Positions 3,079-23,327 of a stretch of 39,451 nt of DNA are shown here, one piece after another (the first letter of the stretch is position 1; the number at the start of each line of letters is the position of its first letter). Source of the stretch: an uncultured Lachnospiraceae bacterium (GTDB lineage: Bacteria > Bacillota > Clostridia > Lachnospirales > Lachnospiraceae); contig CAMOGQ010000015.1 in NCBI GenBank assembly GCA_946614165.1, positions 1 to 39,451 on the forward strand, written 5' to 3'. Below the pieces are notes generated by a model, which made no database searches, was not told where the DNA came from, and saw nothing but the letters and a program-made list of their open reading frames with translations. The position numbers and the translations under genes are program-made.

Positions 3079-4215
3079 TTAATAGTCTTCCCTTTCTATG
3101 CTGACACGTTCCATCATGGCTGTCAGGCGCCGAATCAGCCGGTCCTCCTCTTCCTTTGTATCATCAGTATAAAAATGACGGACCGTTGCTTCGATGAAGG
3201 ATTCCGTCGTCAGAGCGGACAGAGCATTCTCAAACAGGTCCAGTTCCTTGGCATTGAAGCGTTTTTCGGCAAGGGGATCTGCTCTGTCGTCCGCCTGGAT
3301 ATTAAGGATCAGACGCGCCGTCTGATAGCTGGTGACCATGGTCGTGGGATAGTCGACGATGTGCAGTTCATCCCCCAGGATATGGTAATAGAATTCCACT
3401 TCTCTGAAACGGGCCCCCGAGACCCGTCCCTTCTTATACTGCTTCATCCTGGCTCTTGTACTGGCAGGAGTCAGCTCCGAATATGTCAGAGGCAGAACGA
3501 TATGGAGGAAGATTTTTTCATCCGGAAAAAAGCAGAGTTCCTTTTCTCCCTCCAGCAGAAATCCTTCATCGCACTTCTCCAGAAGACGAAGGACAAAGTT
3601 GCTGACATAGCCGTTGGCGGTAGAAACAGAAGCACCGATGACCGTGGGAGAAAGGATCATCTGGTTCTGTCTGATAAAGAGATCCATATCCCGGACCAGG
3701 TCTTTCACCTCCAGGATGGCCTTTATTTCCTCGCTGACACTGTTCAAATAGTCTGCAGTCTCGGCTGCGGCCTTCCGATAGGTCTTCAGATCCTCCGGCT
3801 CGTATTTGATCACCTTCAGCGCCGACTCGTTATGGATCCCCATCAAGTCCTCCGGCAGCCTTGTGTCGCTTTCTGTCAGCAGGATGACCCGGTTCATTCC
3901 CAGTGCCATGGTACAGAGTCCGATCTCGAAGAGAACATTGTCTCTCATGGTCTTTACGACCTTGGTCTGGCCGTGCCTCACCAGCTGGGTCTTGTCATGT
4001 CCCTCACAGATCAGGACCGCAAAATCAAAGGTGGGGATTTTTTTGATCAGGACCGGAAGAAGAGCAATATTCTGGGGATCCATGGCTCCGCTGAAAAGAT
4101 CTCTCCAGTAGCTGCAGAGATAGCCCTGGACTTCCAGTTCTTCCTTTACAGAAAAAAGGATCCCGTTATTTTCACTGATTCCGGAAGAAAACAGTATGAT
4201 ATTCTGCGCCCGCAT
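3079..4215 (-). CDS. TIR-STING fusion, cyclic-dinucleotide-gated NADase effector
   Basis: This is a 378-residue two-domain protein. Residues 4-130 match the CAP12/Pycsar-effector TIR-like fold: an opening beta strand (NIILFSSG), FDFAVLICEGHD, and RDNVLFEIGL at 91-100 with Glu97 as the likely catalytic glutamate. Residues 190-348 resemble the prokaryotic STING domain: ANGYVSNFV at 200-208, the strand FLHIVLPLTY, and VDYPTTM at 287-293, the place where bacterial STINGs carry a conserved D-x-PTT. In known TIR-STINGs, c-di-GMP or a related cyclic dinucleotide drives filament formation and the TIR destroys NAD+, killing the infected cell (CBASS). The usual partner, a CD-NTase, is not in the window. 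An AAAGGA ribosome site supports the start. The STING call rests on remembered motifs rather than a search. Confidence 0.7.
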   Translation of the reverse strand: MRAQNIILFSSGISENNGILFSVKEELEVQGYLCSYWRDLFSGAMDPQNIALLPVLIKKIPTFDFAVLICEGHDKTQLVRHGQTKVVKTMRDNVLFEIGLCTMALGMNRVILLTESDTRLPEDLMGIHNESALKVIKYEPEDLKTYRKAAAETADYLNSVSEEIKAILEVKDLVRDMDLFIRQNQMILSPTVIGASVSTANGYVSNFVLRLLEKCDEGFLLEGEKELCFFPDEKIFLHIVLPLTYSELTPASTRARMKQYKKGRVSGARFREVEFYYHILGDELHIVDYPTTMVTSYQTARLILNIQADDRADPLAEKRFNAKELDLFENALSALTTESFIEATVRHFYTDDTKEEEDRLIRRLTAMMERVSIEREDY

Positions 4216-5126: not shown

Positions 5127-5201
5127 AATCATACTGATATTCCTGACGGCTGATTTTCGTAAATCTGCCAGGAGAAATATTTTCTGCATTTTACGGCTTG
5201 A

Positions 5202-5242
5202 AAAAGTGGAGCTTACTCTGATTCGGAGCAAACTCCACTTTT
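5202..5242 (-). terminator. terminator of the pentapeptide-repeat operon
   Basis: AAAAGTGGAG (5202-5211) pairs perfectly with CTCCACTTTT (5233-5242). On the minus strand the stem runs into five T. It lies about 60 bases after the stop at 5306 and would also stop plus-strand transcripts. Confidence 0.85.
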
Positions 5243-5305
5243 CATACGTTTTCCGGTGCGCAGTATCAGACACTTATGACCTGACCATTTAATCGTTCAA
5301 AATCA

Positions 5306-8272
5306 TTAGAATGGATAATATATCGATGGTAATACATAGGAACCTGCATTTTTGTCTGCCGTGTTTCTGACAAAGAACGATGTAGGGTCTATCAAGCCGT
5401 CTGGCCTGTCCTGTCCCATGTAATCGCAATTATATGCATAGCAGTTCTCAAATGTTGCCGAGTGGATACTTATAACATTGTCAAAATGAATATGATTGAA
5501 TATACAGTTTTTAAAAACTGCACCTGTAAATACTGTACTTTCAATATTGCTGTTGGAAAGAACAGAATCACTGATATGCGCTCCAGAGAAATTCATTCCT
5601 CTCATATTGGAATTCTCAAGTAATAAGTGAGAAGCATCACTGAGGTTGATTACGGCATTCGACATGTTGCAGTTGCTGAAATCAATGTAACTCATTTTGG
5701 TATTTGTCATATTTGCATTAGAAAAATTTGACTGGCCCCAGCAGCAAAAAGATATTATTGCATACCTGAAGTCTGCTCCTATGAAATCCGAAGAGATCAT
5801 GCGGCAATTTGTAAACAAAGCATTTTTGAAGGATGTGTTATTGAATGTGCTCCTGTTGGACGATATATTGATAAACACCGATTTATCGGCCAGAGCATCT
5901 ATAAACCTGGTATTATCCAATCCGCAATTTTCCTGCCAGTCATTGGAAGTCTTTTCTTTCTGCACGACATCTGAATCAGGTGCTACATAATACTTGGGGG
6001 CATCAAGAATAATCCTTCTTTTCGGTGAATTCTCTGAATCAAAATCCACATACTCATTAACCTGTAATGTAATATTGGGCTGAGGCAGAGGATTAATTAC
6101 TGGGATAAGATACTTCGAAAAATCGATAAAATAACTCTCTATCAAAATACCTTTTGTCCAGTTTGTATTGCTTAAATTACAATTCACAAACTTTGCTTTG
6201 TTCGCCAATGCATTGGAAAAATTGGCCCCTTCGAAATCTGATTCGAAAGCTTCAATCTGGTTAAGATTACTATACATAAAAGAACTGAGCGAAGCATCTG
6301 TATAGAATAAAGCAGATCCACTTAAGTCAGAATCCTCAAATGTGGCACTTCCCATTTTGATATGGCAAAAATCAAGGTTGCTCATTAATGTATGTTTTGC
6401 TGTTATATATTTAAGATCAGCAACCGAGAGTTCTACTTTACCATGGTTATCTATTCTGGTACTTCTATCATCGTCAGTCTCATCTGTGAACACTTCCTGT
6501 ACCTTTTTTAATAAAGCCGCTGGAATATGTTTGCGCAAATAATGCTGCAGGACCTGTTCAATATTATTATAAAGTTTTGAATTCGTATCTGGATCTAAAT
6601 GGTAGTCCAAAACTTTTACGGGAATCGGATCCTGATTCTGGATTCCTGTTTTCTCAAATAAAGGCTTCTCTGTTCTTATATCTTTAAAACTTTTTATTGT
6701 TTCTTTCAGATGATTTGTTTCATTTGCCCCATCATGCCAGATGTACAAAAGATTGCATATTAAAGAATCCTCCTTTTCCTTTGCAGCAGATTTATTCCAT
6801 GCCGAAGTGACAGCTTCAGTATATCGGTCAATCACCGGATCTCTGAATAAAGCGTTCTGAAATTCGCAATTACTGATAGTTGCATCTGTAAGGCTCATGC
6901 CAGCCAGATTTGAATAGTTTAAGTTAGAACTGCTAAAATCTGTATTGCTTGCATCCGCCAGAGATAGATTACAAGTAGAAATATCACAGTGTTTGATTTT
7001 GCAGTTTTCCATTCTTGCATTTTTAAAATTAGATCCGGCATAGTTGCTCTCCGACAATTCCGAATAATTAAACCAGGATCTGTTGAATTCACTGTTGCCA
7101 AAATTAAGATCATTTATTTTAACAAATGATACAAAGCGATCAGTTAAAACACGCAGCGCTACTGAAGAGAGATTGATTATATAATTATGAACTAAAGTCG
7201 GTTGCGGTATTTCTGTAAGTGGATTACCCTTTTCATCTGTAAGTGGATTGCCATTTTCGTCTATCATCTCAGCTAACAATTCCGTTCTGAGTTCCTTTCT
7301 CATTTCCTCCTCTTTAAATAAGGCATCTCTGTGACTGATCAGCAGTTCATATACATTGAAAAAATCATCAATAAGTTTTGTTACAACTTTTTTGAATTCG
7401 TCAATTCTTCTTTTCCTACCGATTCGTACTTCGGTAATATTTCCTTTTATTTTTTTACTGACAGTTTTATCAAAAACATCGTTATCAAAAGCTTTCTGTA
7501 TCAGCTCAAAATGTTTGTCTATATCGTTAGATTTTATCGGAAGATATTCAAAGCTGTCATTAAACTGACTGGTTACCATCATCTGATATTTTATATAGTC
7601 TAAAAATCTATTTCTATCCCGGATGTCAATTCTTTTATAGTCTTTATTTCTATTATTATCATTATGACAGAACAGCCATTCAAAACCAAATTTGATGCTG
7701 TCGAAATGCTTATCTCCCTGTATGATCGACTTGTCAATATTATTCGTACAGATCTTATTTATAATGTCCTCCATGATTCGAACATTTTTGCACAATAATA
7801 TTGATCCCATGTTATCAGAAGCTGTATCCCATTCTAATTTGTTTTTCACTTCATAATAAGCAGTGGAAAAGTCATACGTCAATTCACTGTAACAATCAAG
7901 TAGTTGTTTATAATGATCCTTCCTGTCTCCCTGCTTAATTTTCTGGTAAATTTTCGAAATTTTGTCACAGATTTTATCATTTTTATCATCATCTTCTTTG
8001 TCAACCGTTAAATTTAAATCCCGGCATAATTTTTTAGACTGTTCAAGATAAACGTCAATCTGATTACGCAATTCATTATAATCTTTTACCGTATTTTTAT
8101 TATGTATCTTGCGGTCTACTGAACCCAGAGTATTCAGTATGCTGTCTAACTTATCAGCACTTAATTCTGTATTACCAGTGCTGCTTCTCTGACCATCATT
8201 TTTCTTGTCACGCTGTGTTTCATCTGGAGAACCACCGTTCTGCTCATGAGAATCATTATCATTATTGTTCAT
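5306..8272 (-). CDS. large pentapeptide-repeat protein, partner of the TIR/ATP-grasp/rSAM protein
   Basis: The protein has about 988 residues. A TTG at 8284 is in frame, but GGAGG lies 5 bases before ATG 8272, so the TTG region is the ribosome site and 8272 is the start. Residue numbers here count from the TTG. Residues 1-60 are Asn/Asp/Ser-rich and disordered. Residues 60-390 are mostly helical. Three blocks of pentapeptide repeats follow (A[N/D]LxX style: 392-482, 635-725, 790-957), separated by non-repeat segments that look globular. Pentapeptide repeats fold as right-handed beta helices and act as binding surfaces; MfpA and Qnr mimic DNA. The gene overlaps its upstream neighbour by 11 bases, with the ribosome site inside that gene, so the two are translationally coupled and probably made in fixed ratio. 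It looks AT-richer than the flanking genes. It could be a scaffold, inhibitor or target-binding subunit. Confidence 0.85.
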   Translation of the reverse strand: MNNNDNDSHEQNGGSPDETQRDKKNDGQRSSTGNTELSADKLDSILNTLGSVDRKIHNKNTVKDYNELRNQIDVYLEQSKKLCRDLNLTVDKEDDDKNDKICDKISKIYQKIKQGDRKDHYKQLLDCYSELTYDFSTAYYEVKNKLEWDTASDNMGSILLCKNVRIMEDIINKICTNNIDKSIIQGDKHFDSIKFGFEWLFCHNDNNRNKDYKRIDIRDRNRFLDYIKYQMMVTSQFNDSFEYLPIKSNDIDKHFELIQKAFDNDVFDKTVSKKIKGNITEVRIGRKRRIDEFKKVVTKLIDDFFNVYELLISHRDALFKEEEMRKELRTELLAEMIDENGNPLTDEKGNPLTEIPQPTLVHNYIINLSSVALRVLTDRFVSFVKINDLNFGNSEFNRSWFNYSELSESNYAGSNFKNARMENCKIKHCDISTCNLSLADASNTDFSSSNLNYSNLAGMSLTDATISNCEFQNALFRDPVIDRYTEAVTSAWNKSAAKEKEDSLICNLLYIWHDGANETNHLKETIKSFKDIRTEKPLFEKTGIQNQDPIPVKVLDYHLDPDTNSKLYNNIEQVLQHYLRKHIPAALLKKVQEVFTDETDDDRSTRIDNHGKVELSVADLKYITAKHTLMSNLDFCHIKMGSATFEDSDLSGSALFYTDASLSSFMYSNLNQIEAFESDFEGANFSNALANKAKFVNCNLSNTNWTKGILIESYFIDFSKYLIPVINPLPQPNITLQVNEYVDFDSENSPKRRIILDAPKYYVAPDSDVVQKEKTSNDWQENCGLDNTRFIDALADKSVFINISSNRSTFNNTSFKNALFTNCRMISSDFIGADFRYAIISFCCWGQSNFSNANMTNTKMSYIDFSNCNMSNAVINLSDASHLLLENSNMRGMNFSGAHISDSVLSNSNIESTVFTGAVFKNCIFNHIHFDNVISIHSATFENCYAYNCDYMGQDRPDGLIDPTSFFVRNTADKNAGSYVLPSIYYPF

Positions 8273-11200
8273 ATTTACCTCCAAAGTTCTGCTGCTGATC
8301 GTCGATTTTCCATACGGATTTAACTACATTTGTTTTCTGAATATTCCAGGGGAGGCTGACAGTATTGTTCTGACAGCAGGGACAGCTGGGACCCAAAAAA
8401 GGAACAGATTCAGGGTGTTCAGCATGATAATCCGCAAGCATATGACTGACCGTGTTAAATAAATCATAAACCATCTTTATGGACGGAGCATTAAGATTTT
8501 CCAGTTCAGTATCCGGAAGCGGTCTGAATACAGAAAGCATGGGTTCTATATCATTCTGTATCAGATTCCAGATTCCCTGAATCATATCCTCATACGGTTC
8601 CAGGCCTACAATGACCATACTTCTCACGGCAGTTCTGGCTCTGTGATGTGTCGGCCTGTTCAGAATCTGTCTTGTACGAACAAGCCTTTCCATATAAGTA
8701 TCTACAGATATCCGTGATTTTCCCGGCATATAACGCTTTCTGCATTCTTCATTAAAGATCTCAATATTATATGCATATTCCAGTACGCCGTTCGCGACCA
8801 GTTCTTCCACGGTTTTATCTTTCAGGGGAAGAGTCATGGCATAGATAGGAAATCCTCTGTATTTTCCAAGTACCCTGGATACGTCAACTATTTCATTGGA
8901 ACCTTCTTCCGGAGACTGACCGCCGATCAGGAAATGTCTCAGCGTGACGGTTTCTCCGGGAATATATTTTCCTGAGCTTTCTATGCTATGCTTATCCTGT
9001 ATGTATTTATCGACTACATATTCAATATCCTCCGGGGTGATTTTCTTTTCACCAAAATTAGGTTTTATATTACAGAATTTGCATTCACTGCATGTTCCGT
9101 CTTTATTGATCTTTTTATATCTGCAGACATTTGTAATGTGGACTCTTAATCTGTCTGTTGAAAGGTAGGCAATTTCCGAAAACAGATGCTCCTTGTACCG
9201 AAGATTCTGATTTGCATCGGCAGAAAAAACACCTACGTTGTCAATCAGTAAATCAAAATAATATTTGATACTGTATTTGTCAGGATATTTTTCGGAAGGC
9301 ACTAGCGTAAACGGCGAAAACTCAACATATTTGATGTTTGTCGGCGCATTGATGATCATCAGCGAAGCCTTGCTGCCGATCTGCAGATCCACTGCATTAT
9401 TAGTAGCTTCTCTCAGTCTGCTCTGTATTTCGGGAGCGATTTTAATTCCCTGGATCATCAATGATATTTTAATGGCCAGCTTTTCCCTGGAACGGATTTT
9501 CCTCACAAGCCGCTTTTCGGGTTCACATATGTTTTCATGTACCAGTACCTGACCGTCTTCATTTATACTGGCAATGTTATGGTTAAAAGAAACACGATAC
9601 AGGTATGCCTGCGCCCTGTACTTTCTGCGGTCTGGCGTATATCCGTCAGCCTGAATATTTAATCCGGGATATCTTTCATTTTTATACTCTTCCGCACATT
9701 TATAGATCCATGAATCATGGTCTGTGTGGCCTTCATAACTATAATTATAATTGCTGTACGGCACTGTTGACTGGCTGTTAAAGGGCTCAAAGTTATCGCT
9801 CGGACATACCCCGGAGAAAGCATCCAGATTCATCTCCTGCACAGTTTTCTGTCCGTTAGCCAGAAGCGACCGGTTAAGCAGTTCTGTAGACGCCTGGAAT
9901 CTGCCATTTACTTCCAGTATATTTACACGCTTGTCATGAATAATCGCGTCAATTCCGCAAACACCCCGGTATCCATTATTACGAAGAATTTCAGCAACAA
10001 TCATTACCTGTCTTCTGAATTCTTCTCTTAAGTATAAAGGTATCGTTTTATATGCAAAAAAATCAGCCCCTTTATATAACAGCTTATTTTCTGTAGGTAC
10101 CTCTCTGATGATCTGTATGGACCCCGGGAGGCACACGACCCGATTATCGTATATGACAGCATGCATATTTACCGAAATATTGCGGCTGTGATACACAGAT
10201 ACAAGGTACTTGGATTTTTTATCCAGCGACGATAAAAGGTAATCCGCATTTTTGCTGTCTAAAATAAAAGTTCCGGAACCGCCGGAAGAAACCGGAGCCT
10301 GCACAATAAAACGAAGATTTCTGTCATACCTGATCGGCGGGACTTCGTAAGGATATTGTCCGTTATCAGTAAAATAGCCTTCGGTAAATAAATGATGCAG
10401 ATCTGAATAATCACAGTCCATGCGGGTTCTTTCCACAATCGGAAGAAGCGGAACGCTTTCTCTGATCATTTCTCTTAATTCGGACTTATTATTGACCCTG
10501 CTCAGCAGCTTCTTATCATTGAGGCACAGAAAGTGCTTCCGTTCATCATCTGTAAAGGATAAGCGATGGGCTGTCGTTGGGTTATAAAACATAAATCTGA
10601 CATCCTCTTCTCCTTTTGAATCAGAGATGATTTTTTTTATGGCTTCTTCATAAAATTTATCTTGTGACAGATCAGATGCATCATTGTGGTCAACGCGGTC
10701 TTCCGAATCCCCGTCCTGGTCGCACATTATGATCCGGTCTTCTGTGTTTTTCTCTCCGAACAGAAAAATACCGCCCTCAAATCCAGAAAACCCTTTTGTC
10801 TGCCTTACCGGCATATCCGACTCCCTTGTCCCGACCCAGTAAATCTTGGATAAATCCGTATGCTCTATCTCTCTTGCTCTTCCGAGACGGCTCTGAATCT
10901 TCTGAAAGAAGGCTCTATCGGTATCATCTTTTTCTCTTATGACACAAGCAGGGGCAGCGTCCCTTCCAAAACTGCGAAACAGTTTATCAGCCAGATCCGA
11001 AAGATATGATCTGCCTTTATCAGATTTATAGAACACCGGAATGATATTTCTAAAACTGTCTACAGCCGCTTTTAATTCTCCGAAGAAAATGTTTCTAAGC
11101 TGAGGATTTATACGTTCTTCATTCTGGTAATTCAGCCAGGACAAAAGATATTTAACCGAGTCCTCCGTCAGTAAAATAATAAAGTTGTCTCTTTTTATGA

Positions 11201-11366
11201 TTTCCTTTGTAAGATGAGCCAGCAGTTCTTCATCATTCGACATATTCTCTTCGTCATAATAAGAATCAATGTCCGCTCTTCTTAAATGATTCTGAAGATT
11301 CTGAGGAGTATTCATCCCATCTGTTGTGCGATAGCTGATAAAAGCTGAAATATTTGTATTTTCCAA
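8262..11366 (-). CDS. TIR / ATP-grasp / radical-SAM fusion protein
   Basis: Residue numbers count from the in-frame TTG at 11399 (1045 residues). GAGG lies about 8 bases before the TTG at 11366, which I prefer as the start (1034 residues). Domain 1 (16-125) is TIR-like: ISAFISYRTTDG, then DIDSYYDEENMS, then NFIILLTEDS, with Glu94 or Glu95 a possible catalytic residue. Domain 2 (about 265-520) is ATP-grasp: a pre-domain, FIVQAPVSSGGSG (364-376) as the glycine-rich loop, GVCGIDAI (479-486) and NILEVNGRFQAS (493-504) with the metal-binding Glu and Asn. Domain 3 (about 750-1000) resembles the biotin-synthase-like radical SAM fold: TNVC (Cys759), Cys770, Cys773 and Cys776, LIGGQ (824-828) in place of GGE, IVGLE, and FRPLPDTEL. 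CPCC at 1006-1009 may bind a second cluster. An NAD- or nucleotide-acting TIR joined to ligase and radical chemistry suggests synthesis or alteration of a peptide or nucleotide signal. The function is unknown. Confidence 0.85.
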   Translation of the reverse strand: MENTNISAFISYRTTDGMNTPQNLQNHLRRADIDSYYDEENMSNDEELLAHLTKEIIKRDNFIILLTEDSVKYLLSWLNYQNEERINPQLRNIFFGELKAAVDSFRNIIPVFYKSDKGRSYLSDLADKLFRSFGRDAAPACVIREKDDTDRAFFQKIQSRLGRAREIEHTDLSKIYWVGTRESDMPVRQTKGFSGFEGGIFLFGEKNTEDRIIMCDQDGDSEDRVDHNDASDLSQDKFYEEAIKKIISDSKGEEDVRFMFYNPTTAHRLSFTDDERKHFLCLNDKKLLSRVNNKSELREMIRESVPLLPIVERTRMDCDYSDLHHLFTEGYFTDNGQYPYEVPPIRYDRNLRFIVQAPVSSGGSGTFILDSKNADYLLSSLDKKSKYLVSVYHSRNISVNMHAVIYDNRVVCLPGSIQIIREVPTENKLLYKGADFFAYKTIPLYLREEFRRQVMIVAEILRNNGYRGVCGIDAIIHDKRVNILEVNGRFQASTELLNRSLLANGQKTVQEMNLDAFSGVCPSDNFEPFNSQSTVPYSNYNYSYEGHTDHDSWIYKCAEEYKNERYPGLNIQADGYTPDRRKYRAQAYLYRVSFNHNIASINEDGQVLVHENICEPEKRLVRKIRSREKLAIKISLMIQGIKIAPEIQSRLREATNNAVDLQIGSKASLMIINAPTNIKYVEFSPFTLVPSEKYPDKYSIKYYFDLLIDNVGVFSADANQNLRYKEHLFSEIAYLSTDRLRVHITNVCRYKKINKDGTCSECKFCNIKPNFGEKKITPEDIEYVVDKYIQDKHSIESSGKYIPGETVTLRHFLIGGQSPEEGSNEIVDVSRVLGKYRGFPIYAMTLPLKDKTVEELVANGVLEYAYNIEIFNEECRKRYMPGKSRISVDTYMERLVRTRQILNRPTHHRARTAVRSMVIVGLEPYEDMIQGIWNLIQNDIEPMLSVFRPLPDTELENLNAPSIKMVYDLFNTVSHMLADYHAEHPESVPFLGPSCPCCQNNTVSLPWNIQKTNVVKSVWKIDDQQQNFGGKYEQ

Positions 11367-11399
11367 TTGTTCTACCTCGCTGTTATCCGAGTATTGCAA

Positions 11400-12982: not shown

Positions 12983-13486
12983 TTATCCATTTTCATCTGA
13001 AAACAGCAGATTCACTTCCCTGAAGACCCTGTCCAGGATCTGCTCTGTCAGCCGGTAGGCATTTTCACATTCGCTCTGCCTGGGGCCTCCGACGCAGAGG
13101 TCAAGACCGTCCGGCAGGCTCTCCAGCCAGGCAAGAATTCCGGCAGCGTCCTCCATACCGACAGCCGTATACATGGGCTTTCCGAGACGGATTCCTTCCC
13201 TGAGGCCCAGATCCGTACCTGCGGATGCAGCTCCTTCCGGCATAATGGTCAGTATGGCGTCAGCATCCCGCATATTCCATACAGTCCTCTGAGCGGTTCC
13301 CGGAGACGGCGTTTCCGTAAGCTGGGGATAGTCTGCAAGAAGGCCGGGGGCATCGGGGTAATCCTCTGCCCAGCCCCCTCTGGGGCACCAGCCGCACAGA
13401 TCGATATGATATCTGAGCGCTGTGTCCATGGCGGCCCTGTCAGCGCCGGACTGGCCGCCGGTCCGAACAGTCTTTATCTTCTTCAT
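12983..13486 (-). CDS. SLOG-family protein (putative molybdenum-carrier / YpsA-like)
   Basis: This 167-residue protein has VRTGGQSGADRAAMD at residues 7-21, the phosphate-binding loop of the SLOG superfamily. LCGWCPRGGWAED, TETPSPGTAQRTVWNMRDADAI and GTDLGLREG follow, the pattern of the putative molybdenum-carrier protein family (PF12694-like). SLOG domains bind nucleotide-derived ligands, and several are linked to NAD or ADP-ribose signalling; the molybdenum role comes from an old family label. It is the last gene of the operon Nudix-DUF429, PARG, SLOG, 40 bases after PARG. That context suggests sensing or handling of an NAD-derived nucleotide rather than molybdenum. The family match is good; the function is inference. 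Confidence 0.8.
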   Translation of the reverse strand: MKKIKTVRTGGQSGADRAAMDTALRYHIDLCGWCPRGGWAEDYPDAPGLLADYPQLTETPSPGTAQRTVWNMRDADAILTIMPEGAASAGTDLGLREGIRLGKPMYTAVGMEDAAGILAWLESLPDGLDLCVGGPRQSECENAYRLTEQILDRVFREVNLLFSDENG

Positions 13487-13526
13487 CTTTCCTTTTCCCG
13501 CCTCTCATACAGGTCAGTAGGGTGCC

Positions 13527-14405
13527 TTACTCCAGATCCCCCAGATACTGTTTAAAGGCATCATAGTTCTTTCGGTCTTTCGGCGTGCAGTATACGGCAA
13601 AGGCGATCACGTCGAAAAATCCCCTGAATTCTTCGGTTGCCTGTCTGTAAGCCCTGGCCACCACACGGGGATCGTTCTGAAAGGCCCCGCATCCGAAGGC
13701 GCCCAGTACCAAAAGGTCCACGTGGTTTGCTGCCGCCACCCGGAAGATGTGTCCGGCTCTTTTTACATGGATGTCAAAGAGTTCTTCCTCTGTCAGAGAA
13801 AGGGGCTTTCCGGCACCGGGATTATACATATTGGAGGGTCTCCTCCTCAGATTCGGTGCGGCGCAGCTGATCACATCGACCTGCCTCCAGTCCTCCTTCT
13901 TCATTCTGACAGGGATACTGTCATCCGTCTTGCAGATAATTACGCCGGGAGAATAAATGCAGGCATCCGAATAGCGGGCATCTCCCCTGTTTCTGTTGAC
14001 CGTATAGTACTGGTCATAGAGCCATTTTCTGTCCAGGGTGGAATACAGGGTAGAGCAGCGGCAGAGGCTTTCCTCCTGGGCCCTGCTGCCCTTTAAAACG
14101 CCGCCTCCAGGCCTTGTTGCGCTGGCAAAGTTCAGTACCGCGATCTTCTTTCCTGGATACCTGTCAGAGAGCTCCATGGCTGTCTCAAAGGTCTTATGGT
14201 CCGTTACAAGGACTCCGGCGGTTCTTCCTTCCCTTCCCTCAGTGCTCTCCGGAATGGGCACTTCCGGGTCCTCTCCTTCCCTGTACAGCCTGGTATTCAG
14301 CCTGCCGAAGGATACGGCATCACGAAGACAGGGATCTGTTTCATACCAGTCTCTTGTATCCTGAAACACTTCCACCATCTTTTCCTTTATATCGCTTTTA
14401 TACAC
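13527..14405 (-). CDS. bacterial-type poly(ADP-ribose) glycohydrolase (TIGR02452 / DUF2263)
   Basis: The protein has 292 residues. The PARG signature GGG-x(6-8)-QEE is present: GGG at 100-102, seven residues, then QEE at 110-112, with FASATRPGG before it and SLCR after it. The fold is a macrodomain. Known bacterial PARGs remove ADP-ribose chains or single ADP-ribose groups by hydrolysing the glycosidic bond, with the second Glu of QEE catalytic. LLVLGAFGCGAFQNDP near residue 235 is the second conserved macrodomain loop. It sits between a Nudix gene, which could cleave ADP-ribose to AMP and ribose phosphate, and a SLOG gene. This is a coherent ADP-ribose salvage or detoxification set close to TIR NADases. 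Confidence 0.88.
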   Translation of the reverse strand: MYKSDIKEKMVEVFQDTRDWYETDPCLRDAVSFGRLNTRLYREGEDPEVPIPESTEGREGRTAGVLVTDHKTFETAMELSDRYPGKKIAVLNFASATRPGGGVLKGSRAQEESLCRCSTLYSTLDRKWLYDQYYTVNRNRGDARYSDACIYSPGVIICKTDDSIPVRMKKEDWRQVDVISCAAPNLRRRPSNMYNPGAGKPLSLTEEELFDIHVKRAGHIFRVAAANHVDLLVLGAFGCGAFQNDPRVVARAYRQATEEFRGFFDVIAFAVYCTPKDRKNYDAFKQYLGDLE

Positions 14406-14487
14406 TGCTGTCCTGTCCTTTCCCAGTATGTGCCTTTGCTCAACAGCTTTTTTACTGTATCTGTTCCCGCTTTTTTATTTCATGATA

Positions 14488-15732
14488 TCAGTTCTCTTTT
14501 CCCTTTATGATGCGGGGGATGACCATCTGCATAAGAATTCCTCTGGCATCCGCTTCCGGTACTGCAGGAACCGTTTCGCACAGTCCGTGAGCCTTCATGC
14601 CGGCCGCTGCCGCCAGGCAGAGAGCGTCCAGTATGTCATCCGGCCTGCAGTCAAGCTTCCCGGACAGACGGACGGCCATGTAGGGATCTTCCATCTCAAC
14701 GTATTCCGAAAGGATATCCATCCGCTCCGTCATTCCGAAAAAGTCGTTTTTACGGCTCCTTACCACTTCTCCCTTCAGCCGGGCAAAGCACAGCTCCGGA
14801 TGGCTTTCGCAGAGGACATTTTTATATTCCGGATGCCGTCCCAGAAAATCATCCAGTTCTCTGATCCTGGGAATAATGGCCAGGGTCTGCCTGGAAAGGC
14901 TCTTCCCCAGGGCCGCCATGTTGGCTGCCTTCCGGGCCTCCTCCTGCCTTTTCTCATCCTCATCTTCTGCGTGGACAGCCTGCCTGCAGGGAATGGGAAA
15001 AACGGTCGCTTCTCTGCCCTTTAAAAGCTTTCTCGCCTCTACCTCAGGTCTTTTTTGTTTCTCCTTCTCACGAAGACCCAATGCCATATCGATCAGGTAT
15101 GCATCTGCGGAAGGGTACCTGCTCATGATCTCATTTATATCGGGATACCTTTCTATACGGATCCTTCCGTGATCCAGGGCCGCCAGGATCCAGCCGTTTC
15201 TGCAGCCGTCGATCCCGATATAAAGGCCTTCCGAAAGCATCTTTCTTCCCGGGATCGGAAACATAAGCGCGGCGTTCATGATGTGGGCAATGTTCTGGTC
15301 TCCTGCAAAACGGTCCCTGTCTGTAAAGTCCTCCGTCAGAGGGAGCCAGACAAGGGGATTTTTCTCCTCCCTGAGCACTGCATCCTTCTCCAGCATGCCG
15401 ACATAGATCTCCAGAACAAACTGCTGGTAATAGTAGGTCAGATCCATCAGGCGGAAGAGACTGGTCTCCCTGCAGGTAATGCCGGTCTCCTCTTCCAGTT
15501 CCCGGTAGGCCGCATCCTCGGAGGATTCCCCCTTTTCCACTCTGCCGCCCACAAAATTGAGTTTTCCTTCATAGGGGTCCTTTTTCCTCCTGCAGAAGAG
15601 GACCGCTTTCTTTTCTCTGTCAAACAGCACGATGCAGTTCATATGCGGAAACCCCGCCGCTCTGTCGTTTCTCATAAACCCCCTTCTTCCTGACACTCCG
15701 GCCTCTCCGACTTTTTCGACAGGCTCTGTCAT
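14488..15732 (-). CDS. Nudix hydrolase fused to a DUF429 (RNase H-fold) domain
   Basis: The 414-residue protein joins two domains. Residues 31-160 are Nudix with a complete box at 63-85 (G-x5-E-x7-REL-x-EE-x-GI), so it can bind divalent metal and hydrolyse a nucleoside diphosphate linked to a group X, perhaps ADP-ribose. Residues 170-390 are DUF429: GLYIGIDGCRNGW (169-181), AYLIDMALGL and a later DILDALCLAAAAG, the predicted nuclease of the RNase H fold. ATG 15732 has AGGA just upstream. A second ATG at residue 20 is preceded by AAGGGGG and could be the true start. It heads the PARG-SLOG operon (82 bases before PARG). The fusion suggests joint handling of a nucleotide and a nucleic acid substrate; the real target is unknown. 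Confidence 0.85.
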   Translation of the reverse strand: MTEPVEKVGEAGVSGRRGFMRNDRAAGFPHMNCIVLFDREKKAVLFCRRKKDPYEGKLNFVGGRVEKGESSEDAAYRELEEETGITCRETSLFRLMDLTYYYQQFVLEIYVGMLEKDAVLREEKNPLVWLPLTEDFTDRDRFAGDQNIAHIMNAALMFPIPGRKMLSEGLYIGIDGCRNGWILAALDHGRIRIERYPDINEIMSRYPSADAYLIDMALGLREKEKQKRPEVEARKLLKGREATVFPIPCRQAVHAEDEDEKRQEEARKAANMAALGKSLSRQTLAIIPRIRELDDFLGRHPEYKNVLCESHPELCFARLKGEVVRSRKNDFFGMTERMDILSEYVEMEDPYMAVRLSGKLDCRPDDILDALCLAAAAGMKAHGLCETVPAVPEADARGILMQMVIPRIIKGKEN

Positions 15733-17662: not shown

Positions 17663-19135
17663 TTACAGAGCCTGGAGTTTAAAGCTGGACTTCACTTTCT
17701 TGCCGGACGGCTCGCTTGCCTCTACCTTCAGAAAACCGTCGCTGTCAAGGCCGATCCTGCAGGTCAGCTCAAGGGATCTGGGAGAATCGGGCGGCAGATC
17801 AAGCGTTACTGTCCCTATCAGTCTTTTATCGCTTCCGTAGTAGTCGTATTCCTCGTCCGTATAGTCGGACTCGTAAACACGGAAGGATACGTACTTCTGG
17901 TTGTCCTCCACCGGGGTATAGGTCTTATATGCCGATGCCGGAAGGACTGCTCCCTTTTTCAGAATGTTGGAGATGATCACCCTGTTGTCGGGATAACCGT
18001 AATGGGTGTTGGTGGCCTGTCCATAGGAAAGGCTGACCACATCCCTGAGCACGTTTGTCTCGGGCATATTGGCATAGAAAGCCGCCCCGTTCACCACTGC
18101 GTGTTCAGGCTCATAGAGCCTGATCCTGCAGTCCGGGAAGCGTTCCACCAGGCCCTCCTCTACCTGGAGCATATTGGAGCTGCCTCCCACGCAGATGATC
18201 TCTTCAATGTTGCAGCGGTCCTTATGGGCGTCGTAAAGCTCCTGAAGGCATTCAAATGTCTCCTCCAGCAGAGGCTTTGTTCTCTCATCAAATACCGCTC
18301 TGGTAACAGGCACTGTATAGATTCTGCCGTTCAGCTCCACCCTGGCCATGGCTCTTGTCTTTCCGGGGTCCGAAAGGTCATGCTTGACGGAAACAGCCGC
18401 GCGGCGCACCTTCTCTTCAAAGCCCGGATTTCCCACGATGGTAATGCCGGATTTTTTCTCAATATTCTCCGTAATGTAGCCTGCCAGTTCTCTGTCCCAG
18501 TCTCTGCCCCCTCTGCGCACCATATCCGAAGCTTCCACGGTATAATGCTCCGCACAGGAAGAATCCGCCCTGACCAGGGCCGTGTCACAGGTGCCGCCTC
18601 CCAGGTCATAGACAAGGATATATTTATTGTCTTCCATCTGAGACTGGTAGTAGGCAATGGCAGCAGCCACAGGCTCCTTGACCACAGCCCTGACCGGCAG
18701 ACTCCTGTTTTCCATACACTCTCTTGCCGCTTCGGCGATCAGATGCTTTTCCTGCATGCCGAACTTGGCGGGAACTGTAATGACCATTCCCTCGATTTCC
18801 TCATCGATGGAGCGTTTTCTGGCCACCTGCACAGCCTTGGATACCAGAGCCTTATAGATCTCGCAGACGATCTCCTTGGCGCTGAAGGTCCTGCCGTCCA
18901 GGGTAAAGGACTTGCCGGACAGGATGGCCATCTTCACATCGCTCACCATGTTGACGGCAGCCTCCCCCTGGCCAGCATCCAGAGCATCCTGCCCTATCAG
19001 GATCCCGCATTCCCTGTCATAATAAAATACAGACGGGATGCCGTATTCTCCGGGATTTAAAAGCATCTGGGGCTGGTCCAGAAAAATCGTGGAGACCTGA
19101 GAATATGTAGTTCCAAAGTCAATTCCGATAAACAT
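17663..19135 (-). CDS. Hsp70-family chaperone lacking the lid
   Basis: The 490-residue protein has a full ATPase domain: GIDFGTTYS (4-12), VITVPAKF, KEPVAAAIAY (153-162), YDLGGGTCD (176-184) and ICVGGSSNM (314-322). A shortened beta-type substrate domain follows (about 385-490, ILKKGAVLPAS to SSFKLQAL). The alpha-helical lid and EEVD-like tail of DnaK are absent; DnaK is about 610 residues. It should bind peptides with ATP-driven cycling but release them easily. It starts 3 bases after the upstream coiled-coil protein with a GrpE-like end, so the two are probably a dedicated chaperone/exchange-factor pair. No J-domain protein is visible. It is the last gene of the TerY-P array; clients may be the kinase, the nuclease or the ATPases. 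Confidence 0.92.
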   Translation of the reverse strand: MFIGIDFGTTYSQVSTIFLDQPQMLLNPGEYGIPSVFYYDRECGILIGQDALDAGQGEAAVNMVSDVKMAILSGKSFTLDGRTFSAKEIVCEIYKALVSKAVQVARKRSIDEEIEGMVITVPAKFGMQEKHLIAEAARECMENRSLPVRAVVKEPVAAAIAYYQSQMEDNKYILVYDLGGGTCDTALVRADSSCAEHYTVEASDMVRRGGRDWDRELAGYITENIEKKSGITIVGNPGFEEKVRRAAVSVKHDLSDPGKTRAMARVELNGRIYTVPVTRAVFDERTKPLLEETFECLQELYDAHKDRCNIEEIICVGGSSNMLQVEEGLVERFPDCRIRLYEPEHAVVNGAAFYANMPETNVLRDVVSLSYGQATNTHYGYPDNRVIISNILKKGAVLPASAYKTYTPVEDNQKYVSFRVYESDYTDEEYDYYGSDKRLIGTVTLDLPPDSPRSLELTCRIGLDSDGFLKVEASEPSGKKVKSSFKLQAL

Positions 19136-19138
19136 AAA

Positions 19139-20386
19139 TCAATCGTCCTTTCTGATTCTGACCTTCTCCTTCTGGAGGACCTGTTCCCCCCAGACAAAAC
19201 CGTTTCTGAGACTGGTTCTGACAGTCTCCTTCCGTGGATCGAACCCCTCTCCGGCATCGACTGCCTCATGAATTCCGGGGGAAAACTTTTCTCCCGGCAG
19301 GGAAGCCGTACTCTGAATGCCGTAGTCTGCAAGATATTCGCAGATTATGTCCAGAAAGACATCCAGATTCCAGGCTGCATTCTCCAGATCCGTATCTTTC
19401 TTCTCCCTGGCCTTGGCCGTCACGGAGTCCCTGTAATCCGCGATCAGGTTATACAGTTCCAGGTACTGATCAAAGGCTTTTCTGACCAACTGGTCTTCGG
19501 CAGCCTTTTCCATCTGTTTCAGAAGATTGCTGATGCCCAGCATGCTCTTCCGTACCTCCGAAAAGCCATCATTCATACGGGACTGGGCAGTTTCAAAGTT
19601 CTTTCTTCTTTCTTCTGCTCCGTCAGATGTCATGCGGTTTCTGGCCATGCAGAGTCTTTCCTCTGCTTCCTTATAGGCTCTTTTTTTGACTTCTTCGGCT
19701 TCCCTGCCGGCTTCCTCCAGAATGGCTTCCTTCAGCTTATCCGCCTGTTTCCTTCCCTCTTCCAGAATCTCTTCCTTTTGTCTCTGTGCTTCTCCGATCT
19801 CTGTGCTGATGCGCTCCCCGATCTCGTCCCTGACCAGCTGGGTGATTACGATCTCCCTCATCTGATCCGGATCAGGCCAGTCTTTTTTCTTCTGCATCTC
19901 TCTGTAGATGTTTTCTCTCAGCCTGGGAAGTGCTCCATCGATCAGCATGGCCGCATTGGAGAGCTGCGTAATGTCAGGATGTCGAATTTCGCAGTTTTTG
20001 TAAAAATACTGGGCCGCCTCTTCCAGCTCCACTTTTCCCGGACAGTTTTTGTCCTGCATATGATCCGCCAGCATGGTAACCAGGGTCCAGCCATCAAAGG
20101 GAGGCATGACCGTCCTGCCGGCCGGCTCTGTCAGAGTGAAATTTTCCGGCTTCCAGGACCAGACTACGAGCCGTTTCCTGATACATAATCCATAGCATGC
20201 CGAAAAAGCCATATTTAAAAGAGGGGAGTTCAGATAAATAATGAGTTCTTCCATCATCATCTCCAGAAGAGTCATGATCTCCCCGGCATCCTGGGTCTTT
20301 CTGCTGATACTGAAACGACGGTTATAGTCGGAATAAAGATTAAAGTAATAATCCAACGAATTCATTTTTCTGCCCGCAGTTTCCAT
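19139..20386 (-). CDS. coiled-coil protein with GrpE-like C-terminal domain
   Basis: An in-frame ATG at 20416 overlaps the upstream gene, but GGGAG stands 8 bases before ATG 20386, giving 415 residues. The N-terminal part (to about 200) is helical with no family that I recognise. Roughly residues 205-300 are a long charged coiled coil (EEILEEGRKQADKLKEAILEE). The end, about 360-420, has FSPGIHEAVDAGEGFD, then TVRTSLRNGFVWGEQVLQ, then KVRI. This parallels the GrpE beta wing (FDPxxHEAV, then TVxxVxxxGYxxxxxxLRxAxVxV). GrpE is a coiled-coil dimer that exchanges nucleotide on Hsp70, and the next gene is an Hsp70 3 bases away. A GrpE-like exchange factor with a large extra N-terminal region is the best reading. 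Confidence 0.7.
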   Translation of the reverse strand: METAGRKMNSLDYYFNLYSDYNRRFSISRKTQDAGEIMTLLEMMMEELIIYLNSPLLNMAFSACYGLCIRKRLVVWSWKPENFTLTEPAGRTVMPPFDGWTLVTMLADHMQDKNCPGKVELEEAAQYFYKNCEIRHPDITQLSNAAMLIDGALPRLRENIYREMQKKKDWPDPDQMREIVITQLVRDEIGERISTEIGEAQRQKEEILEEGRKQADKLKEAILEEAGREAEEVKKRAYKEAEERLCMARNRMTSDGAEERRKNFETAQSRMNDGFSEVRKSMLGISNLLKQMEKAAEDQLVRKAFDQYLELYNLIADYRDSVTAKAREKKDTDLENAAWNLDVFLDIICEYLADYGIQSTASLPGEKFSPGIHEAVDAGEGFDPRKETVRTSLRNGFVWGEQVLQKEKVRIRKDD

Positions 20387-20402
20387 TGTCATCTCTCCCT
20401 TC

Positions 20403-21674
20403 TTACCTGTTTTCATATCCCAGAAACCTCATGGCTGCTTCCGGATGCCCTGCAAAGGAAATCCTCATTCCTGCAGTCACTGGCGCCGCCTGCCCCGGTA
20501 AAAGTTCATTTTCTTCCCGATCTGTCATAACGGTCCAGACGATTCCGCTCATGTTCCTGATTCCCAGTGTATTGGTCCCTGCCTTATAAACGATCTTCAT
20601 AAAGGCCGATCCCCTGCAGGGGATCCCCAGGATCTCTCCCGTAAGCACTGTGCCCCTTCCAAAGGAGATCCTCAGCCTGTAGGAGGAATCCTTTCTCTCG
20701 ATCAGCCACCTGGTCATCAGATCTTCCTTTATCGTGGTACTGCCGCAGAAGGGACAGGAAGCGGCGGGTACGAACATATGCTTTCCGCAGAAAATACAGG
20801 CCTGTGTCTGATCTTCCTCCTTCTGCAGGATCTTCTCCCATTCCTCCGGTGAAAGGATTTCTCTGGCTTCCGGCTCTTCCAGACAGCCCTTTACGAGCGC
20901 CTTTCTGATTTCCTCCGGCAGGATCTCCATACATTCCATGGAAGGAGCATAGCCGCAGATTCTTCCATTCATATCCAGATAAAGGAACCTGTCCTCCTCT
21001 TCAGTAAGCCCCAGAAACGGATCTTCGTATTCGGCAGGCCAGGCTCCTGTCAGAAGGCGGAGGATCATCGCCGAAATACTCATAGAAGGCAGTTTCTCCG
21101 CTGCTTCTTTCTCTTCACCTTTTTCCTTCATATCTCTGTAATCGTAAAGATAACGGAAGAAACCGTAAGCCGCATTGAAATAAAGCTGATGACCGTCCAG
21201 TCTTTCCGGCGTAAGGCCCTTGTTCTGCAGATGTCTGAGGGTTCGCAGAAAGGAAATGACACTTTTCAGAGCCCCCTTTGCGTCCGCTCCCGACTTTCTG
21301 ACATACTCCGGATCCAGCAGCCAGGCGTAGCCGTTTAAATAGCTTCTCAGGTCGCAGTCCGCTATAAGTCCCCTGCGGCCCCGGCTGAGATCATATCCGT
21401 CGACGGGAAGAAGAATGGTATCTGTTTCGATGCCGTTTTCATCCTCCAGAAAGCCGCTGTCATAAAGTCTGTCTGCCTTCTTCAGCAGGTCATTCAGATC
21501 TGCCTCCCCGTCCAGGGGAAGAGCCATGCACTGGTGTCCGGATCCTTCATAGAAGATCAGGAAGGGCTCCCTTCCCTGATTCCTGCCTGCACATCTGACC
21601 GCTTTTCCCAGAAGGGTTTCAAACCTGCCGGGCATCTCCGACGTATTCCTTTCCGTATCCTGATTATTATCCAT
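20403..21674 (-). CDS. pseudokinase paralogue of the TerY-P kinase
   Basis: The 423-residue protein has the same architecture as the kinase at 21840-23327: kinase-like domain, four-cysteine zinc ribbon (Cys293, Cys296, Cys307, Cys310), then a beta-rich tail with an NMSG motif and a PG turn. The catalytic residues are lost. There is no glycine-rich loop or VAIK lysine, and where the active kinase has YKDISYNNVFIN this one has LTPERLDGHQLYFN, without the catalytic Asp. It is probably a regulatory pseudokinase that pairs with the active enzyme or binds its substrates. AGGAGGAG precedes ATG 21674. It has its own C-tract promoter and leader hairpin (21729-21816) and heads the pseudokinase, GrpE-like, Hsp70 sub-operon. 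Confidence 0.72.
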   Translation of the reverse strand: MDNNQDTERNTSEMPGRFETLLGKAVRCAGRNQGREPFLIFYEGSGHQCMALPLDGEADLNDLLKKADRLYDSGFLEDENGIETDTILLPVDGYDLSRGRRGLIADCDLRSYLNGYAWLLDPEYVRKSGADAKGALKSVISFLRTLRHLQNKGLTPERLDGHQLYFNAAYGFFRYLYDYRDMKEKGEEKEAAEKLPSMSISAMILRLLTGAWPAEYEDPFLGLTEEEDRFLYLDMNGRICGYAPSMECMEILPEEIRKALVKGCLEEPEAREILSPEEWEKILQKEEDQTQACIFCGKHMFVPAASCPFCGSTTIKEDLMTRWLIERKDSSYRLRISFGRGTVLTGEILGIPCRGSAFMKIVYKAGTNTLGIRNMSGIVWTVMTDREENELLPGQAAPVTAGMRISFAGHPEAAMRFLGYENR

Positions 21675-21728
21675 CAGGTGCTCCTCCTATCCCTTCTTTT
21701 TGCCATTCTGCCGCTTTCCGGCGGGACC

Positions 21729-21774
21729 GTAAGGAGACCTGTCCGGCTGTCCCCGGGATCCGGTCTTTCCTTAC
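21729..21774 (-). promoter_or_regulatory. leader hairpin element L1
   Basis: The transcript from promoter C would begin near 21774 with GTAAGGA, which pairs with TCCTTAC at the 3' edge of the element (plus-strand GTAAGGA at 21729). AGACC/GGTCT and CCGG/CCGG pairs nest inside. The core between GGATCC and CTCCTTAC is almost identical to L2 and L3 at 26115-26165 and 26395-26446. It could be an RNA regulator, a processing site or a repeated element. Confidence 0.6.
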
Positions 21775-21780
21775 ATCCTT

Positions 21781-21816
21781 ATTATGAACTGCCGCTTTTT
21801 TCCTTTCGAAGGGGGG
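21781..21816 (-). promoter_or_regulatory. C-tract promoter C: CCCCCCT then CATAAT, gap 24
   Basis: On the minus strand CCCCCC (21816-21811) lies exactly 24 bases before CATAAT (21786-21781). It sits just after the kinase stop codon and about 110 bases upstream of the pseudokinase start. Confidence 0.65.
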
Positions 21817-21839
21817 ATGTGGCGGAAGGGAAGGGAGGT

Positions 21840-23327
21840 TCAGCGGATATCTTCCACCGTAAGCTGGAGTCTTCTTCTAAAGACGGTGATGATCATACCC
21901 TTCTTCAGAATGACTCTTCCTCCCGGTCCGCAGTTCTTCTTTATTCCGTTATCCGTAACGATCCAGTCGGAGCCGCTCATGTTCACTGCCGCAAGGCTGT
22001 TGACCCTGCTGTTGTACTGGATCTTCATCCAGCCCTCGTTCAATCCCGGGTAAACCTGCCTTCCCGCCATAAGGGCTTTTCTCTTAGCTGTAATGTTAAG
22101 GCGGGTCGGCGCGATGTCTCTCCGGGCCAGGAATGTCACAGTAGTAAGCTCGTTCGGGACAGGTCCCTGCACAGGCGCTGGTACAGGTGCGGGCTTTGGT
22201 CTGTCTTTGATCAGAGAAAGCTTTTTGCCGCAGAAGATACATATCCTGTGCTTTGCCCTGTCTCCGAAGTTCATCCTTCCGCAGCTGCATCTGACCAGAT
22301 CCGAAGCCGCGACGCCTTCGAAAATTCTGATCCAGTCAGTGTCCTTGACCCGCATATGCTTGTTTTCATTTTTAAGGCCTGTGGAGAATGTCTGGATAAA
22401 GCCCTTCTTAACAGCCGCGGGAAGGTTTTCCCAGCAGATCACCTGGGCTTCATAGCGGTAAGGGGTCAGGGGATCCTTCAGATTTCTGATTTCGTTGGAG
22501 TGATCTCTGGGATCGAAGGCAAACAGGGCATCGCTCCCGTAAATCACAGCCCTTGCATCATGGATGTCCAGATTGTTTTTCATCAGGTAGTCTCTGGTTT
22601 TTTTACCGTCCAGCGGATTTCCGCCTACCAGAATGAAATAAAAGAGACATGCCATGGAGAAGTAATCCGAATAGGTATCGGGCGTCTCTGTCACATAGAT
22701 CTCGGGAGCGGCAAAGCCCTCCGTTCCAAAGATGGTCTTGACAGACTGAACACTGATATTGTCGCAGTCAATGATCCGTACATCTCCGGTCCTGGGGTTT
22801 ATAAAGACATTATTGTAGCTGATATCCTTGTAGCAGACCCCGCGGAAATGGACCCTTTTGAAGAAATGGGCGATATTGATGCAGGCCTTGCAGAGGATGT
22901 CGGCTTCGGGAAAAACATCATCGTGCCTGAGCTTAATCACCTGAATATATTTATCCGTATCCACCAGCTCCATGATGTAGCCGAAGCCTCCGCTGGCGGG
23001 AAGATCGACCAGATCCAGGGGCCTGATAAAAGATTCCAGAAATGACTTTCCGTCATCATCGGTGAGAGGCCTTCTGATCAGATCCTCGATGTTTTTCTTA
23101 ATACAGCGGTGTACACGACGGTTCTCGGGAGAGGGCTCAAATTCCTTAAAGGCAAATTCCTTCTGATCGGAGCATCTGCGGGCCCTGAAGACCGCAGCCA
23201 CTCCGCCCCTTCCCAGTTCCGGGCCGATCATATATTCTGTTCCGGTCCTGGAAACAACGATCCTGTCGGTCACGGTTTTTCCGGATCTGGTCCTTCTTTT
23301 TCTTTCCTTATAATCTCCGCTGATCAT
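21840..23327 (-). CDS. Ser/Thr protein kinase with zinc ribbon (TerY-P triad kinase)
   Basis: This is a 495-residue eukaryotic-like kinase. The glycine loop LGRGGVAAVF is at 38-47, Lys61 is in FAFKEF, and the catalytic loop is YKDISYNN with Asp168 and Asn173. IIDCDN at 185-190 stands where DFG is usual, and the APE motif is at 207-209. The HRD and DFG motifs are thus variant (YKD, DCD) but the key acids are kept, so it is likely active. A C-x-C and C-x2-C zinc ribbon follows near 345-370, a proline-rich linker, then a beta-rich tail possibly like FHA. It overlaps the PP2C gene by ATGA (23324-23327), so kinase and phosphatase are coupled. This is the kinase member of the TerY-P triad described by Aravind's group in tellurite-resistance-linked stress systems. 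Confidence 0.88.
   Translation of the reverse strand: MISGDYKERKRRTRSGKTVTDRIVVSRTGTEYMIGPELGRGGVAAVFRARRCSDQKEFAFKEFEPSPENRRVHRCIKKNIEDLIRRPLTDDDGKSFLESFIRPLDLVDLPASGGFGYIMELVDTDKYIQVIKLRHDDVFPEADILCKACINIAHFFKRVHFRGVCYKDISYNNVFINPRTGDVRIIDCDNISVQSVKTIFGTEGFAAPEIYVTETPDTYSDYFSMACLFYFILVGGNPLDGKKTRDYLMKNNLDIHDARAVIYGSDALFAFDPRDHSNEIRNLKDPLTPYRYEAQVICWENLPAAVKKGFIQTFSTGLKNENKHMRVKDTDWIRIFEGVAASDLVRCSCGRMNFGDRAKHRICIFCGKKLSLIKDRPKPAPVPAPVQGPVPNELTTVTFLARRDIAPTRLNITAKRKALMAGRQVYPGLNEGWMKIQYNSRVNSLAAVNMSGSDWIVTDNGIKKNCGPGGRVILKKGMIITVFRRRLQLTVEDIR

Follow-up and report, generated by a model that had tools for sequence, protein, structure and literature searches.

What might a bacterial protein do that joins a TIR domain, an ATP-grasp ligase and a radical S-adenosylmethionine (SAM) domain in one chain and whose gene runs into that of a giant pentapeptide-repeat protein (PRP)? 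The question is raised by contig CAMOGQ010000015.1 of an uncultured Lachnospiraceae bacterium (assembly GCA_946614165.1), a stretch of 39,451 nucleotides that was analysed as a whole and is called the window below; its source is one incomplete metagenome-assembled genome (MAG; 87.65% complete, 288 contigs). The part of this arrangement that recurs in other genomes is a two-domain ATP-grasp-radical SAM enzyme paired with a PRP, the TIR domain being found on the enzyme of the window only. Tentatively, and with less than even confidence, we read the pair as a module of two genes that was acquired horizontally and whose likeliest type is immune or abortive, the product of the enzyme, its trigger, the formation of a complex, the NADase activity and the role in defence being what we infer.

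The three domains indeed share a single open frame (8262-11399, minus strand), as the first-pass annotation of this DNA had described. The frame encodes 1045 residues counted from its first TTG; the TTG at 11366 is preferable as a start, because it has GAGGT upstream; it gives 1034 residues and coincides with the end that the annotation had assigned to the pair. The proposed coupling to a 988-residue PRP also holds, the two genes overlapping by 11 nt and each start having a ribosome-binding site upstream, and so does the claim that the pair has its own terminator: the hairpin downstream of the PRP gene, absent from the list of a consensus terminator scan, was picked up by an inverted-repeat search, and the fold of positions 5193-5250 reaches -26.3 kcal/mol (z -7.4; none of 200 shuffles as good).

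Residue numbers below and in Table 1 refer to the 1045-residue form unless the 1034-residue form is named. The TIR part passes the Pfam cut-off for TIR_2 narrowly (residues 20-128; E 1.6e-6; 29.1 bits versus 28) and has no match among PDB chains in a phmmer search up to E 1. Its E108 (E97 in the 1034-residue form) aligns with the glutamate of three other TIR proteins from the window and the genome, two further rows of the alignment being unusable; this glutamate we take to be the residue usually regarded as catalytic. The match to ATP-grasp_3 (residues 364-504; E 1.4e-6; 28.9 bits versus a cut-off of 23.2) and the ATP-grasp-type motif residues D, E, N and R, invariant in all eight full homologues, assign the predicted enzyme to the ATP-grasp superfamily; profile matches of this part to PDB entries are weak (E 0.002 and above). 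The identity of the radical SAM region rests also on residue conservation, because both profile scores are below their cut-offs (Radical_SAM of Pfam, residues 773-895, E 4e-5, 24.2 versus 29.5 bits; variant_rSAM of NCBIfam, residues 638-985, E 2e-23, 83 versus 125 bits): three cysteines in a C-x(8 or more)-C-x2-C arrangement, a spacing unlike CX3CX2C, and a GG motif are invariant in the same eight proteins. To call this region biotin-synthase-like, as was done at first, is fair but loose, given weak matches to MSMEG_0568 and ThiH (E 0.031). The partner can be classed as a PRP by its Pfam repeats (Pentapeptide_4, E 8.6e-30), which form three blocks behind a helical-looking, non-repeat N-terminal part.

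Eight full ATP-grasp-radical SAM enzymes were collected: that of the window, that of a Christensenella MAG (locus L022, found by a scan of genome contigs, apart from the genome draws described below) and those of loci L027 (genome G142), L028 (G286), L058 (G918), L059 (G908), L060 (G885) and L061 (G986). Two more loci are partial, L062 (G1031) being cut by the contig start and L026 (G081) having the ATP-grasp part only. A PRP adjoins the enzyme in nine of these ten loci, and the tenth, L028, holds a fragment of 117 residues at the contig end that weakly resembles the PRP of L058 (E 0.004, filters off). The first-pass annotation had suggested a search for homologues that keep all three domains and the neighbour: ATP-grasp, radical SAM and PRP are kept, whereas none of the seven other full enzymes has a TIR domain, which therefore does not stand as a conserved member of the set.

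The pairs occur in two layouts. In the window and in L022, the genes run in the same direction, in the same order, and the PRPs are giant and homologous; in the other eight loci, the two genes face each other tail to tail. The enzyme of L022, the nearest relative, is 40-41% identical to that of the window, and its PRP aligns with the window PRP at 26% over 931 columns (E 6e-75), the alignment beginning at residue 127 of the latter and 232 of the former; the N-terminal region is conserved beyond the repeats, and a block around residues 378-468 of the window PRP is strongly conserved. In the enzyme tree, these two proteins group with support of 100/98; support for a group of the six full tail-to-tail enzymes, at 85/89, is less than firm. 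The tail-to-tail PRPs are about 460-530 residues long, with a C-terminal part of their own (the PRP is partial in one of the eight loci); all seven short PRPs match Pentapeptide_4, and their similarity to the giant PRPs is of repeat type only.

ATP-grasp and radical SAM genes related to the two halves of the enzyme also occur as separate neighbours, in G665 and on contig C52 of the window's own genome. The stretches read there contain no PRP, and the two activities would by this pattern belong to one pathway and have been fused later. In the window's own genome, the second ATP-grasp and radical SAM pair, made of separate genes (L025:6342-9035), adjoins an AAA-type gene that matches PADLOC PDC-S01. 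Another locus (L063:7341-13503) looks, by eye, like a biosynthetic cluster, with related radical SAM, ATP-grasp-like, peptidase-like and aldehyde-dehydrogenase-like genes.

The tail-to-tail pairs are probably cassettes that would invert, because they combine flanking inverted repeats, a shared core and neighbouring recombinases. Inverted repeats (Table 1) flank the pair in all six loci that can be read at both ends; in L028 and L062, which are cut, no repeat pair was found. Five of the six cassettes have at both ends a core that differs from GGATAA-N7-TTATCC by no more than one mismatch, the chance expectation at one mismatch being 0.06-0.08 per locus (computed for L061, L060 and L027), and one such core was found in L028. 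A tyrosine recombinase adjoins four of the eight loci (L026, L059, L061 and L062); these recombinases are 44-55% identical to each other, that of L061 matches Phage_integrase at E 1e-42, and none was recognised in the lists of open reading frames (ORFs) of L027, L028, L058 and L060. The gene on the recombinase side belongs to the enzyme group in three loci and is the PRP gene in one, the mixture that flipping would give. In L061 and in L027, just one of the two repeats has a TGnTATAAT promoter on its outer side, directed towards the PRP in L061 and towards the enzyme group in L027, so that a one-sided promoter is clear in two of the five cassettes scanned, the other three being ambiguous. The window pair has no such inverted repeats, with only two core matches at two mismatches, as expected by chance, and no such core was found in L022. 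In their repeats, shared core and adjoining recombinase, the tail-to-tail loci resemble the invertons by which tyrosine recombinases bring about phase variation; they differ in that the whole enzyme/PRP pair, not just a promoter, lies inside the repeats. The shared core makes the presumed switch directly testable.

A further difference between the loci concerns parts that might serve as an output. The PRP of L022 has hydrophobic, membrane-like segments at residues 30-174, within the stretch left unaligned against the window PRP, whereas a hydropathy scan of both window proteins gave no hydrophobic segments; the two nearest loci thus contrast a membrane-like part on the PRP with a TIR domain on the enzyme. 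Among the short PRPs, five of seven have a hydrophobic C-terminal segment. The PRP of L058 lacks one, and this locus and L028 carry separate membrane-type proteins that are related to each other (E 6e-10); in L026, neither the segment nor the separate protein is clear, and L027 encodes a DUF4760 protein with one hydrophobic segment. The output part would, by this comparison, be exchangeable between loci, and the contrast between L022 and the window is the first part to probe.

The pair looks imported, since its composition departs from that of other window genes and the enzyme has no match elsewhere in the genus. Third-position GC content (GC3) is 41.6% in the enzyme gene and 34.3% in the PRP gene versus 58-65% in seven other genes of the window, and in 21 genomes of the genus, the enzyme alignment found at E 1e-30 only its own genome and none of the other 20, of which 12 are less than 90% complete, so that absence is uncertain in each of these. 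In wider genome draws, which include the own genome and overlap each other, the enzyme had matches in 14 of 392 genomes of the order at E 1e-3 (three full-length, namely the own genome, G142 and G286, with G081 matched over the ATP-grasp part), 9 of 391 of the class at E 1e-20, 8 of 397 of the family at E 1e-35 (six full-length) and 5 of 398 of the phylum at E 1e-40, the four besides the own genome being lone radical SAM proteins. Of the 391 class genomes, a profile of the giant PRPs (A3) found the window's own and no other. The plasmids and phages searched gave no match for the window enzyme, and nothing was confirmed in viral contigs searched with the enzyme and two enzyme alignments; the L061 enzyme matches 58 plasmid records, of which 10 were inspected, and a single phage record, over the radical SAM half only, with no place covering 80%. 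This record filed as a phage (MT835476; L075, MT835476.1:76662-89627) looks bacterial by its neighbouring ORFs.

As an arrangement, the set looks new, matching as a whole none of the families and systems with which it was compared. The first-pass annotation knew of no described system with this set, and searches of the literature, confined to open-licence papers, bear this out: none with this combination of domains and partner, or with this cassette, was found. Among the nearest likenesses is the anti-phage system Hailong, in which a pentapeptide-repeat protein also stands beside an enzyme; HalB makes an oligodeoxyadenylate signal and HalA is the membrane effector. A PDB entry of HalA in complex with oligodeoxyadenylate (9nyi) is a pentapeptide-repeat match, and all seven short PRPs match the HalA model (NCBIfam NF051894) within the repeats, far under the cut-off. 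Membership in Hailong was rejected: the window PRP scores 30.8 bits and that of L058 41.2 bits against a cut-off of 250, no HalB nucleotidyltransferase stands beside it, and the enzyme, an ATP-grasp-radical SAM protein instead of a nucleotidyltransferase, matches TIR, ATP-grasp and radical SAM only. In logic, HalA is the known parallel for a PRP that would read the product of an enzyme. With Thoeris and other TIR-based defence, the window shares a TIR domain weakly similar to ThcB4 of Thoeris type III and to retron-TIR proteins, and a ThsA-macro gene adjoins the L060 pair; the enzyme chemistry and the PRP stand here in place of a ThsA-type partner, and no ThsA match was found in the fusion, the PRP or the other nearby window genes scanned.

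Membership in Thoeris was likewise rejected. Graspetide and other ATP-grasp peptide pathways, in which ATP-grasp and radical SAM enzymes are neighbours at loci for modified peptides, as parts of PMC8939145 describe, were set aside more tentatively. In the present case, the two are domains of a single enzyme and no precursor peptide was recognised, although no short-ORF search for precursors was made; the words 'pentapeptide' and 'TIR' do not occur in the main text of PMC8939145. The radical SAM half matches models of MSMEG_0568-type and variant radical SAM proteins (TIGR04043, NF045502), and some of the plasmid matches of the L061 radical SAM half, among 10 of the 58 records, are annotated as MSMEG_0568; the scores are, however, below both cut-offs, and here the half is joined to ATP-grasp, with a PRP instead of nitrilase genes as the partner. 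A precedent for the immune reading comes from PMC10853773, which describes Orc/CDC6 proteins of invader-defence loci as fusions with either pentapeptide repeats or TIR.

If the pair is an immune module, the ATP-grasp-radical SAM enzyme would make or alter a small amide-type compound, and the PRP, as a scaffold, would detect that compound or the enzyme and govern an output part. This output would take exchangeable forms. In L022, it would be the membrane-like segments of the PRP; most tail-to-tail loci would use the hydrophobic C-terminal segment or the membrane-type protein encoded apart; in the window, the TIR domain fused to the enzyme would take this place, and depletion of NAD+ or formation of an ADP-ribose signal would follow once a trigger reaches the PRP/enzyme complex. 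The first-pass annotation had offered three readings, a self-made signal, a TIR product used as a substrate and modification of the PRP; each of them may hold, and in our judgement the swap of TIR for a membrane part between the two nearest loci fits a signal/effector reading best. A bolder version, speculative and rather doubtful, is that of an undescribed class of immune module: the enzyme would make a non-nucleotide signal or a protein modification, the PRP would respond to it, and an exchangeable part that kills would be driven in this way. The modules of most relatives would be phase-variable, flipping setting the expression of enzyme versus PRP, so that some cells of a population are armed and others are not, and the window would be a fixed operon with its own TIR executioner. 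Were the role in defence true, radical SAM/ATP-grasp chemistry would join the bacterial ways of sensing or signalling infection and PRPs would become linked to a TIR effector; otherwise, there remains a widespread-looking, unannotated enzyme/PRP pair in probable invertible cassettes.

Several observations weigh against an immune role. The TIR fusion is known from a single sequence, in a MAG that is incomplete. PADLOC matched none of seven proteins from the related loci and nothing in the window PRP, and its matches to the enzyme are confined to the TIR part (E 0.0069 and 0.041). Although the L060 pair lies behind bSEFIR/TIR, SIR2-like and ThsA-macro genes and the window encodes two more TIR proteins (one STING-like, one with a CARF-like N-terminus) and a Cas6, neighbours of this type were seen at these two loci only, the others having been read by eye. 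Several of these have housekeeping-looking genes and look like ordinary chromosome, so that only a minority of the loci speak for defence. The one-sided promoters suggest that those cassettes express enzyme and PRP alternately instead of jointly, contrary to joint action there; the radical SAM part is not essential to the pairing, because L026 lacks it; and membrane-like parts were called with a simple hydropathy window, run without a control set.

The main rival, itself doubtful, takes the PRP as the substrate: ATP-grasp and radical SAM would act on it by ligation, side-chain cross-linking or C-H chemistry, the modified beta-helix would be the active agent, and the TIR domain would dock or kill. 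The expectation of the first-pass annotation that ATP-grasp plus radical SAM modifies peptides or cofactors does remain plausible, and a PRP is the one partner at nearly every locus (nine of ten, plus the fragment); the PDB matches of the ATP-grasp part include peptide ligases (8ynd, E 0.0056; PGM1, E 0.078), the loci in parts of PMC8939145 set the same two enzyme types side by side, and the PRP block shared with L022 is strongly conserved. However, no leader- or core-peptide pattern was seen, none having been searched for, the short and giant PRPs are alike in repeat type only, and one-sided promoters in two cassettes would separate the enzyme from its substrate. It is unlikely that the enzyme makes a metabolite without an immune role, such as an amino-acid-derived natural product or a cofactor, with TIR and PRP as regulatory or structural additions. 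Such a role would agree with the PRP-less neighbours in G665 and C52, with a biosynthetic-looking cluster in G848 that holds related enzyme halves and with distant radical SAM relatives in different metabolic surroundings, nitrogenase-like clusters among them (the last two by eye), but the paired loci have no transporter, precursor or additional enzyme in common, an extra radical SAM gene being present only at L059:4793-5926 and L028:9256-10371, inside or adjoining the cassette, and a nitroreductase-like gene at L059; a TIR domain and inverted repeats would also be unusual for plain metabolism.

Two further alternatives concern the fusion. That the TIR domain is inactive or merely docks, tethering the enzyme in a system that works as in the TIR-less relatives, is decidedly improbable: its score just above the cut-off, an insertion of about 18 residues ahead of the glutamate and the fact that all other full enzymes manage without TIR are set against the alignment of this glutamate with other TIR proteins and against nearest family matches that are, though weak, phage-defence TIRs. 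Even less credible is an artefact of assembly or gene calling, which a fragmented MAG and a fusion met once might suggest; the frame is open without stops, no in-frame ATG, GTG or TTG between 10920 and 10820, where the TIR-less relatives begin, offers a separate ATP-grasp start, and the composition is similarly foreign on both sides of the joint (GC3 of 37% in TIR, 49% in ATP-grasp and 41% in radical SAM).

Table 1. Coordinates of the features discussed (positions of the window unless a locus label precedes them).
Feature	Location	Strand	Details
TIR-ATP-grasp-radical SAM fusion enzyme	8262..11366	-	1034 aa from TTG 11366; open frame to TTG 11399, 1045 aa
TIR domain	10985..11342	-	about residues 20-138; Pfam stretch 20-128; putative catalytic Glu E108
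ATP-grasp region including its N-terminal part	9720..10850	-	about residues 184-560; ATP-grasp_3 364-504; conserved from residue 185 in relatives
Radical SAM region	8348..9488	-	about residues 638-1017; cluster cysteines C759, C773, C776; second conserved motif C1006-x2-C1009-x2-N1012
Overlap, enzyme stop / PRP start	8262..8272	-	11 nt
Giant PRP	5306..8272	-	988 aa from ATG 8272, GGAGGT upstream
Terminator hairpin and T run 3' of PRP	5202..5242	-	fold and inverted-repeat search
Probable cassette	L061:8208-12171		inverted repeat 112 nt, 100%
Probable cassette	L059:102-6081		inverted repeat 112 nt, 96%
Probable cassette	L026:7849-10525		inverted repeat 51 nt, 98%
Probable cassette	L027:5065-9490		inverted repeat 24 nt, 96%
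Probable cassette	L058:1-4377		inverted repeat 24 nt, 100%, at contig ends
Probable cassette	L060:8617-12669		inverted repeat 21 nt, 100%

Elsewhere in the window, all on the minus strand, the TIR and prokaryotic STING-like protein (CAP12-type; 3079-4215) lies near a transposase-like gene, and no SMODS (CD-NTase) cyclase that could serve it was found in the genome. Genes for cpYpsA, a microbial PARG and a NUDIX-DUF429 protein stand in a row at 12983-15732, ADP-ribose-type surroundings of native composition beside the TIR pair, and HSP70-like, GrpE-like and PP2C-type genes form one run at 17663-25213. At the contig end (36691-39407), the Cas6-like gene adjoins that of the TIR/CARF-like protein.

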